A stretch of DNA of 64,000 bases from Halodesulfovibrio sp. GTDB lineage: Bacteria; Desulfobacterota; Desulfovibrionia; Desulfovibrionales; Desulfovibrionaceae. The notes beneath the pieces are model-generated. The model did not search any database and had not been told where the DNA came from. It worked only from the letters and a program-made list of their open reading frames with translations. Each line of letters opens with the position of its first letter. Positions within the stretch are counted from its first letter, which is position 1. The translations under genes were made by a program, and so were the position numbers. Of the stretch, positions 7,716 to 60,160 are shown in pieces. Location of the stretch: NCBI RefSeq assembly GCF_025210605.1, contig NZ_JAOARI010000028.1:1-64000 (forward strand), given 5' to 3'.

Positions 7716-9260
7716 ATGTCTGGTTGCAAAAGAAACGGAGCAGCAGCCAGCGGTAAGACAGCTCACATCGCAATCGATCCGGTAACCCGAATCGAAGGTC
7801 ACTTGAAAGCTGATGTTACCGTTGAGAACGGCAAAGTCGTGGACGCAAAGCTTTCCGGCGGTATGTACCGCGGATTCGAGCAGATTCTTCGTAATCGCGA
7901 TCCTCGTGACTCTTCACAGATCGTTCAGCGTATCTGTGGTGTATGTCCTGTAGCACACGCTACTGCTTCTGTTATGGCTCAGGATGCAGCATTTGGTGTT
8001 AAAGTAACTAACAATGCCCGCATTACCCGTAACCTCATTCTTGGTGCTAACTACCTGCAGTCTCATATCCTGCATTTCTACCACTTAGCAGCTCAGGACT
8101 TTGTACAGGGTCCTGATAGCGCACCATTTGTACCTCGCTACCAAAAGTCAGACCTTCTTGAAGATCGTAGCAAAGAACTGAAAGCTGTTAACGCAGCAGC
8201 AGTCGATCAGTACATTGAAGCTCTCGACGTGCGCGCAATCTGTCACGAGATGGTTGCTATCTGGGGCGGTAAAATGCCTCACGTACAGGGTATTGTTGCC
8301 GGTGGTGCAGCTGAAATGCCTAGCAAAGAACGTATCATTGAATACGCTGCCCGCTTACAGAAGGTACGTGACTTTGTTACTAATAAATATCTCCCAACCG
8401 TTTACACCGTTGGTTCCGTATACCCTGACCTCTTTAAAGTAGGACAAGGACACAAAGCATGTATCGCATATGGCGTATTCCCGCTTGATGATGCTCACTC
8501 CAAGTTCATGATGAAGAGCGGTGTATACTACGATGGTAAGGATCATAAATTTGATCCTTCCAAAATCCATGAAGATGTAAAATACTCATGGTTTGATGAT
8601 TCTACATCTGGTCTTCACTACTCTGAAGGTAAAACTGTTCCTGACCCTCATAAAGAAGGTGCATACAGTTTTGTTAAAGCTCCTCGCTACAACGGCGTTG
8701 CTTGTGAGGTTGGTCCTCTCGCACGTATGTGGGTTGATAACCCTCCTCTCTCACCTGTAGGTCAGAAAATGCTGAAAGAGAAATTCGGCTTGGATGCAAA
8801 ACGCTTCCGTGACCTTGGTGAAGATGCAGCATTCTCCCTTATGGGTCGTCACGTAGCGCGTGCTGAAGAAACTTGGTACCTGCTTGACTTCATTGATGCA
8901 TGGCTCAAAGAAGTTAAACCGGACGAAGAAACCTTCACCGCATTTGAAATTCCTGAGTCTGCTGAAGGTACTGGCTTCACAGAAGCACCTCGCGGTGCTC
9001 TGCTCCACTACCTTGACGTTAAAGACAGCACAATCAACAACTACCAGATTGTTTCTGCAACTCTTTGGAACTGTAACCCTCGCGATGACAAGGGGGTACG
9101 CGGTCCTGTAGAAGAAGCACTCATTGGTATTCCAGTACCGGATGTTGATAACCCAGTAAACGTGGCGCGTCTCATTCGTGCCTTCGATCCATGACTGGGC
9201 TGTGCCGTTCACGTGATGAACGCAGAGACCGGTAAAGTTTCCGTAGTTGAGTTCGAATAA
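7716..9260 (+). CDS. hysA: Periplasmic [NiFeSe] hydrogenase large subunit, selenoprotein
   Basis: The frame reads through a TGA at 9192-9194, giving 514 residues with selenocysteine at 493. The C-terminal motif is DPULGCAVH, with U493 and C496 as two nickel ligands; the N-terminal pair is C74 and C77 in RICGVCP. A conventional translation stops at 9194 and would lose these ligands. After H499 a 15-residue tail (VMNAETGKVSVVEFE) would be removed by a maturation protease. It catalyses reversible H2 oxidation in the periplasm, probably passing electrons to cytochromes c3. The ATG has a TAAGGAGG site 40 bases after hysB. The family assignment and Sec are well established for Desulfovibrio HysA. 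Confidence 0.96.
9192..9230 (+). promoter_or_regulatory. Sec UGA codon and putative bacterial SECIS hairpin
   Basis: Directly after the TGA, GTTCA (9207-9211) and TGAAC (9217-9221) form the tip of a hairpin with loop CGTGA. The loop lies 17 bases after the UGA, within the range of bacterial SECIS elements bound by SelB, and includes a GU as those loops do. Pairing lower in the stem is weak. Confidence 0.65.
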
Positions 9261-9313: not shown

Positions 9314-9792
9314 GTTAGATCGCATTTTATAGCACCCAGAAAAAGCACTTACCAAACCAAGTACGGATTACGGTCTACCGCAGGCAATGTATGCTTTCAC
9401 AACGCTGCTAAGAGCTTCAAACCGAAAAGACTGAGCGTGCTGGCTTCCATAAAAAAAAGAGGCAGAAGACCTCTCCCATATCCAGCGGCTTATCATTAAA
9501 TAAATCGATTGCCATCCAGCTCATTTCTGTACAAAATCGGTTTCAAAACTAGAGTGCAATTCTACATTATATATGCAGGGATGCTAGGCAGCCTTTTCTT
9601 ATTTAATGATAAGGAAAAAAATAATGAAAATTTGTAGGGCGCTATCGAATTTTTATCTGATAGCGCGGAACAAATATAAAAATCTAGCAACACAAATTTT
9701 GCAACCTAGCCCGTGCTCATATACACAAAATTTTCACGATACATATTCCATTACTTTTTTATTCGGCAAAAGCATTGCTTAAAGGACAGATC
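9314..9792 (+). other. Intergenic region with repeated element, copy A
   Basis: The gap holds no credible gene. It contains the 33-base motif at 9566-9598 shared with 56086-56118 and, 50 bases later, the hairpin GCGCTATC...GATAGCGC at 9639-9666. The first 250 bases show nothing recognisable. Confidence 0.5.
9566..9666 (+). repeat. Noncoding repeated element, copy A
   Basis: The 33-base core (ATTATATATGCAGGGATGCT, then AGGCAGCCTTTTC) is identical at 29 of 33 positions to copy B at 56086. A hairpin follows in both. It lies about 195 bases before the maturation protease gene. Whether it acts as DNA or RNA is unknown. Confidence 0.6.
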
Positions 9793-25670: not shown

Positions 25671-26183
25671 ATAGCCCCTCTGTATCTCGAACAAAAAACG
25701 AGGGAGTGCTTACTTGAATAGCCAGCAATACAAGACGGTCTTTTTCTCTCGGAAAAACAAAAGGTAAAGGGGCAGCAGTGCTACAGCGAAACATTTTTAC
25801 TAAGTTCATCGGTAGTGAAAAAAGTAGCAGAACGAGACTCACAAGCTAGAAAACGCCCGCCCCATTCCACTCTTCATTTCATTTTATTCCCTTCCCACCG
25901 CCGTCATTATTATCTGCTGTAAGACGCTGTGTGCATACTTTTCTTGACCATCCTTGCATGTTATGTCATAGCACACATCCGCTTTGCGACACGCAGCCAA
26001 TTGTGTGTGCAATAGCCATTCAAGAATACGTCCATATGAAGATATAAAATTACTGATTGTCTGAGTTCAAAAGACACTGTTAATTTTTCCTATTACTGGA
26101 TTTATTCTTAATTTTCGTTGATACTAACGCTGTTTTACAGGCGATGCATGATACCGCCTATCAAACTTGCTGAGAGAATATTT
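25671..26183 (+). other. Intergenic region before the NIF3-like gene
   Basis: About 510 bases without a convincing gene, hairpin, promoter or repeat. Confidence 0.4.
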
Positions 26184-55713: not shown

Positions 55714-56264
55714 AAACGAACTCCAGTTCATCTCTATAGAGATGTCAGATTTCATGTAAAATATGGACACACTCTTTACTGAGTTGTACCTGAACAGTCA
55801 ATTATGTGAAAAACGACGAATGCGGCGCTTACAGTACCCTATATTATAGGATTCTGCCATGTGTTACCGGTTCGATTGCTCAAAAAAAATGTACATACTA
55901 TCAAGAGGCAAATTGCCACCTTTTAGAATTCCTTTTTCCTTCCGTTCAAGTCGATTGCAGTTTGTGCATGAAATTTATCGTAAAAGAGTGTATAAAACCT
56001 GTAGAGTCTGCAAAAACAATGTTTTCTTTGCGCAAGACTTTATATAAAGTGACAAGATACATCTGCGATTAAGGTGTGTTTCCAAATTATATGTGCAGAA
56101 ATGCTAGGCAGCTTTTTCATCTTACACGGCAGACACGAAAAATGTGCTGAAGGCGTACCAACGCTACGCCGAAACAGATTTTTTGTTACCACGTAAGGAG
56201 AAAAAGCGGACAGCCGCACAAGGTTACCATGTAAAAACACACCCTCGTTATATGAGGAGAAAAT
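55714..56264 (+). other. Intergenic region between ugd and pdxJ with repeated element B
   Basis: No credible gene is seen in these 551 bases. The repeated 33-base motif lies at 56086-56118 with a hairpin GGCGTA...TACGCC at 56152-56170. Confidence 0.5.
56086..56182 (+). repeat. Noncoding repeated element, copy B
   Basis: The core ATTATATGTGCAGAAATGCT, AGGCAGCTTTTTC matches copy A (9566) at 29 of 33 bases. Then CTTAC, GGCA, AAAAA and TGT blocks are shared with copy C. A hairpin GGCGTA/TACGCC follows, then CGAAACAGATTTTTT. It lies 147 bases before pdxJ. Confidence 0.6.
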
Positions 56265-59925: not shown

Positions 59926-59954
59926 TTATTTGAGTAGAAAAAGTGTGATTCTAA

Positions 59955-60050
59955 ATTGTCCATGCAACGGTGCTAAATAGCTTCAAACCTTACGGGCAAA
60001 AGTAAAAAACATGTCGAAATGTAGCAGTTCTACGTCGAAATAGTTTTTTT
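59955..60050 (+). repeat. Noncoding repeated element, copy C (diverged)
   Basis: ATTGTCCATGCAACGGTGCT then AAATAGC matches copies A and B at about two thirds of core positions. CTTACGGGCA and AAAAAACATGTCGAAA parallel copy B. A small hairpin GTAG-CAGTT-CTAC is flanked by direct repeats GTCGAAAT, then TAGTTTTTTT. It lies about 110 bases before lysC. Confidence 0.45.
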
Positions 60051-60160
60051 ACTGCTAACGCGTTAAGGTATAAAGACTGACAATAGTACAAGCGTGCAAT
60101 TCAGAAACACAACCTAATATCTACCCTTCTCATTTTCTTTCTAACGACAAAGGAATCAGT

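Follow-up and report, generated by a model that had tools for sequence, protein, structure and literature searches.

MITEs are short, gene-less, intergenic sequences with terminal repeats and stable stem-loops, and with duplications that fade with age (PMC10969869). Bacterial examples such as RUP, Correia/NEMIS, Nezha and Chunjie (PMC10969869) resemble the family described here from Halodesulfovibrio sp., which is likewise short, carries no gene, has terminal inverted repeats and a stem-loop, and lies between genes in tens of copies. It differs from them in that no resident parent IS was found (in a search for the IS630 DDE_3 domain), its target duplication is only likely, and its unrelated core recurs in structured elements of other genera. 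ERIC sequences, whose copy number varies greatly between genomes (PMC10969869), are similar in size range, palindromic sequence and intergenic position, and the copy number of our family and its relatives likewise varies greatly between genomes; a parent transposase is not evident for our family. REP sequences are palindromes of 20–40 bp with a GTAG or CGTC tag at the end (PMC3733652). They share with the present elements palindromic sequence, high copy number and, in other genera, a strand-specific hairpin, and the apex GGCGTAGC..GCTACGTC of the hairpin superfamily proposed below contains both GTAG and CGTC. However, the present elements measure 120–180 bp as against 20–40, have stacked stems and conserved internal motifs, and do not carry the tetranucleotide at their termini. 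REP identity for the family was rejected on length and ends, which differ from the definition in PMC3733652.

The window is the whole stretch of DNA analysed, the first 64,000 nucleotides of contig NZ_JAOARI010000028.1, and all window features are given on its plus strand. An earlier note on this sequence had reported near-identical cores 46 kb apart, and the likeness is real: 29 of 33 bases are identical between 9566–9598 (in copy A) and 56086–56118 (in copy B), and the runner-up 33-mer in the window matches the core at 21 of 33. The 19-base pattern TGCAGRRATGCTAGGCAGC has two exact occurrences in the window; when up to three mismatches are allowed, a shuffled window should hold 0.1 matches, and none of the shuffles gave two. 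Across the 3.38-Mb genome this core pattern is confined to the two window copies and one place with three mismatches, and on that count we discarded the exact core as a regulon motif. Two-mismatch matches to the core in 247 genomes of the bacterial family were dispersed variants, many being recurrences of a single sequence, TGCAGGGATGCCCGGCAGC, and a regular expression of four ordered motifs was too strict to be informative. Both copies are intergenic, A between hysA ([NiFeSe] hydrogenase large subunit) and the gene for a HycI-type maturation protease, and B upstream of pdxJ. The hydrogenase gene (window 7716–9256) has an in-frame TGA at 9192–9194 (DP*LGCAVH) that is apparently read through and is a probable selenocysteine codon; because of it, plain ORF callers stop the gene early.

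A BLAST search with the insert of copy B against its own genome returned further copies, and a consensus written from these found 22 good places there. R1, a sequence-only model built from 22 copies, finds more than 30 distinct loci; since the sequence is a palindrome, many of these score on both strands. A second model, built without any window copy, recovers copies A, B, C and D, and the reversed window, used as a control, gave nothing below 0.07 against it. The family is a palindromic element of ~175 bp at ~30–40 intergenic places in the genome, four of them in the window; the earlier note recognized a repeated noncoding element correctly but underestimated its size, A and B being members of this one family. 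The consensus ends in inverted repeats of ~25 bp, YTA-GGGTGTGTTTCTA...TAGAAACACACCC-TAR (the majority consensus is approximately (Y)TA-GGGTGTGTTTCTAAATTGTATG...TACAATTTAGAAACACACCC-TA(R)), and is predicted to fold end to end at −77.9 kcal/mol. Nearly all strong copies (26/27) overlap no long ORF, and a few touch ORFs of fewer than 100 codons, which we take to be spurious; the element has no long ORF of its own and is shorter than 500 bp. Copies occur in all gene orientations, their neighbouring genes are unrelated, and they diverge from the consensus by 15–30%.

Copy A, with its flanking CTA, occupies 9549–9721, the right end being approximate. R1 matches it at 9548–9710 (E 1.4e-19, a value that is not independent, as copy A belonged to the R1 training set), and the leave-out model gives E 4.2e-13. 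Its core is the subterminal portion of the 5' arm. Copy B, with flanking TA / TC that are presumed to be the target duplication, occupies 56070–56246 and is found at E 6.6e-37 by R1 and 2.9e-44 by the leave-out model. The element proper (56072–56244, 173 bp) folds as a single imperfect hairpin (z −4.2 against shuffles), in which the left terminal inverted repeat (AGGTGTGTTT, 56072–56081) pairs with the right end, where its counterpart lies (AAACACACCC, 56235–56244); the inserted piece starts with AGGTGTGTTT and ends with AAAACACACCC. A hairpin does follow each core, as the earlier note had it, but the two are not homologous: that of B is the apical hairpin of the element (GGCGTACCAACGCTACGCC, 56152–56170), whereas that of A (9638–9666) is, from arm positions in the family alignment, an accidental pairing of an apex remnant (GGCGCTATC, 9638) with a piece of the 3' arm (GATAGCGC, 9659). 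Copy C lies between tsaE and an aspartokinase-like gene (59940–60117; R1 E 5.3e-31, leave-out E 3.3e-31), and copy D is heavily decayed and has lost its left end (25703–25852; R1 E 2.2e-8, leave-out E 3.3e-8). Copy E is on the same contig beyond the window (C28:74699). The contig itself ends near 75066 inside what appears by eye to be the beginning of a transposase gene of the IS3 type (MRKQTRTKTKRTQRDYTLGFKLAVVAQVESGDM), likely an assembly break at a repeat.

Orthologous intergenic regions were compared in nine other species of the genus, of which five close ones align around B; the comparison is between species of the genus rather than between strains of one species. Copy B is a clean insertion relative to the five, with flanks that align well on both sides and ~180 bases missing between them. 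The copy A segment is also missing in five congeners, and clean empty sites are seen for C in four and for E in three, the flanks of both aligning closely right up to the insertion point; the site of D is not clean. At B and C the empty-site lengths are those expected if 2 bp (TA) had been duplicated within YTAR. Insertion at TA with such a duplication is therefore likely rather than proven, given that the copies have degenerated and that the TA might be part of the terminal repeat. Searched against the nine congeners, the consensus gave two weak partial matches only, both at one orthologous locus that shares just the core. The genome has no IS630-type DDE_3 domain, and neither a longer element nor far ends were found at the partial copies, which are truncated elements, not termini left by some larger transposon; the element is thus non-autonomous, with its helper not found. 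The exact terminal-repeat string is absent from GTDB, neither the consensus of this family nor that of the elements in other genera was found in plasmids and phages, and viral contigs gave no match to the exact patterns.

The earlier note had suggested a conserved core with a variable but preserved stem, and had named compensatory changes as the sign of an RNA. Among the copies of the source genome the stems decay randomly, and no convincing compensatory changes are seen. RNAalifold returned 0 common pairs for the family copies; 69.6% of the cells of the consensus structure are paired, against 68.2% with shuffled partners; and double changes number 64 against 51.5 shuffled, a slight excess that relatedness alone can yield. 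G.T pairs show no excess over A.C mismatches (120 against 157). With pairing near chance and G.T not above A.C, the copies are drifting, and the window copies are fossils, not conserved RNA. Many copies beside diverse genes, together with the lack of convincing compensatory change, therefore indicate a mobile repeat, which the earlier note had offered as the alternative to a regulon.

The two weak matches in the congeners are a single orthologous locus, present also in the source genome (G000:C37:49740–49874), that shares the element centre CAAGGC..GAAGGCGTAGCAGCGCTACGTCGA..GATAACGCAG. Here ~424 bp are 88% identical in three species, against ~72% in the flanks, and next to other conserved sequence the locus contains a hairpin-superfamily member. 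In a search of 348 genomes of the order, the centre matched in three other genera. There it is part of longer hairpins, with stems that vary from copy to copy yet remain complementary. An 800-kb stretch of one such genome, G191 (G191:C1:1400001–2200000), contains 20 elements by a first profile search and ~28 by R2, a structural model built from another genus only, without any sequence of the source genus. These elements are ~120 nt long, and extrapolation from the 800 kb suggests that the whole genome probably has more than 100. In G139, a congener of G191, there are three R2 elements in 400 kb. The samples of the two genomes overlap too little for a synteny comparison, and gene-orientation bias in G191 is unreliable, given spurious ORFs at high G+C.

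Pairing in 19 G191 elements is well above chance: 93.9% of cells are paired against 79.4% shuffled, 27 of 47 pairs carry double changes, and double-change cells number 115 against 33 with shuffled partners and 15–22 with slid partners. There are 78 G.T pairs against 8 A.C, in a structure predicted from the analysed strand, which somewhat favours G.T; without the four pairs that are mostly G.T, the counts from the pair table are 34 against at most 8. With G.T so far above A.C, one strand is kept as a hairpin, either as RNA or as single-stranded DNA. The pattern that the earlier note described, a conserved core with a preserved stem, thus holds for the related elements of another genus, though not at the positions it named. 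These elements covary like structured RNA, yet neither they nor the window family have a credible Rfam match. The openly searchable literature yielded no paper that mentions the core sequence or repeats of this kind in Desulfovibrionaceae, and within that search the element is undescribed. A difference from ERIC is that the consensus of the elements in other genera, used as the query in place of the 184-base window consensus, matched none of the E. coli genomes.

R2 also connects these hairpins with the window. Copy B is its sole match in the 64 kb (56101–56216; 21.8 bits, E 6.6e-4) and again its only match when 272 kb more sequence of the source genus is searched. At the repeat loci R2 detects four more copies at 20–26 bits, and one more reaches 16 bits (E 0.064). 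The conserved orthologous locus scores 45–51 bits; most decayed copies, A included, fall below its threshold. Common descent of the core of the window family and the hairpins of other genera is likely. Farther afield, a search of GTDB for paired terminal repeats gave 24 stretches, among them a 172-bp palindromic family with ends GGGTGTGTTTC in the Verrucomicrobia MAG CAIRBK01 (seven loci) and an Opitutus MAG (one). Four of these loci match R2 at 29–40 bits. The verrucomicrobial family is young, shows no evident target duplication, is G+C rich, has a different apex and was retrieved solely through its ends; its relation to the window family is suggestive only.

We put a probability of about 0.85 on the reading of A and B as decayed remnants of a MITE-like element, ~175 bp long, palindromic and non-autonomous, because the copies are dispersed and intergenic, share terminal repeats, fold end to end, form clean insertions and lose their pairing at random. 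Counting against this are the 15–30% divergence, a large figure for insertions that postdate the split from the congeners, the target duplication, which is likely but unproven, and the outcome of the searches for the IS630 DDE_3 domain and for longer elements at partial copies, which gave no transposase with matching ends. A chance likeness of two intergenic stretches is negligible as an explanation, as the shuffles gave no such pair and both R1 and the leave-out model find the two copies. The conserved leader or regulator site that the earlier note had proposed does not survive the comparison with congeners, which have the same sites, upstream of the same genes, without the element. A cis-regulatory RNA governing the downstream genes (hydrogenase maturation, pdxJ and others) would account for the position of B and C shortly upstream of genes, for single copies that fold better than shuffles and for the strong covariation of related elements elsewhere, but hardly for neighbours that are unrelated, copies in every gene orientation and pairs that decay at random, and we regard it as very improbable.

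The structured relatives bring in further alternatives. The strong, strand-specific covariation in G191, and the one orthologous locus that is better conserved than its flanks in three congeners, could mean that the family is a multi-copy functional RNA, or a single-stranded DNA hairpin with a role in the host, whose function was lost here and kept in G191. This is improbable, though less so than a leader: copy number swings from 28 in 800 kb of G191 to 3 in 400 kb of G139, insertions in the source genome resemble mobile DNA, and hairpins can owe their form to selection for transposition itself, or their symmetry to template switching. Less improbable again, but still unlikely, is movement of single-stranded hairpins in which an HUH/Y1 enzyme (REP/RAYT or IS200/IS605-like) takes the place of a DDE transposase of the TA type; the strand-specific hairpin constraint in G191 and the young verrucomicrobial look-alikes without target duplication speak for it, and the well-kept terminal inverted repeats of the window family, with their YTA/TAR borders, against it. 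Tentatively, and at somewhat less than even odds, the elements could together form an undescribed superfamily of mobile hairpins in several genera (perhaps including Verrucomicrobia), selected as one defined single strand made up of an AAGGC arm, covarying stems, the apex quoted above and a CAACGCnGC arm, with the hairpin a transposase substrate or a host-binding RNA and the window family a branch of burst and decay.

If the window family is MITE-like, an unseen transposase acting in trans on the GGGTGTGTTTCTA ends would have spread the copies after the source species had split from its congeners, the probable targets being YTAR sites in which TA (2 bp) was duplicated on insertion. This transposase may since have been lost, or may never have been resident, and the copies would now be drifting. 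Where a copy stands in a leader, as B does ahead of pdxJ, the mRNA would carry an extra hairpin of ~175 nt and may change in stability. The core would stem from a wider superfamily of hairpin elements within the same bacterial family.

The family is a new MITE-like one, and it has a relative in neighbouring genera that is unexpectedly structured. A mobile-element family thus takes the place of a supposed regulatory leader, which urges caution in reading intergenic repeats as regulons, and some of the divergence of intergenic regions between these species is due to it. The G191-type elements are a good candidate for a mobile structured RNA or single-stranded DNA hairpin. Elements in Chloroflexi MAGs, from the same GTDB search for paired terminal repeats, were also considered as relatives and set aside, as most have 9-bp duplications and none matched R2. 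At five of these loci the elements are palindromes that carry GGGTGTGTTTCA ends and lie between perfect 9-bp target duplications; they appear to be a MITE family of separate origin.
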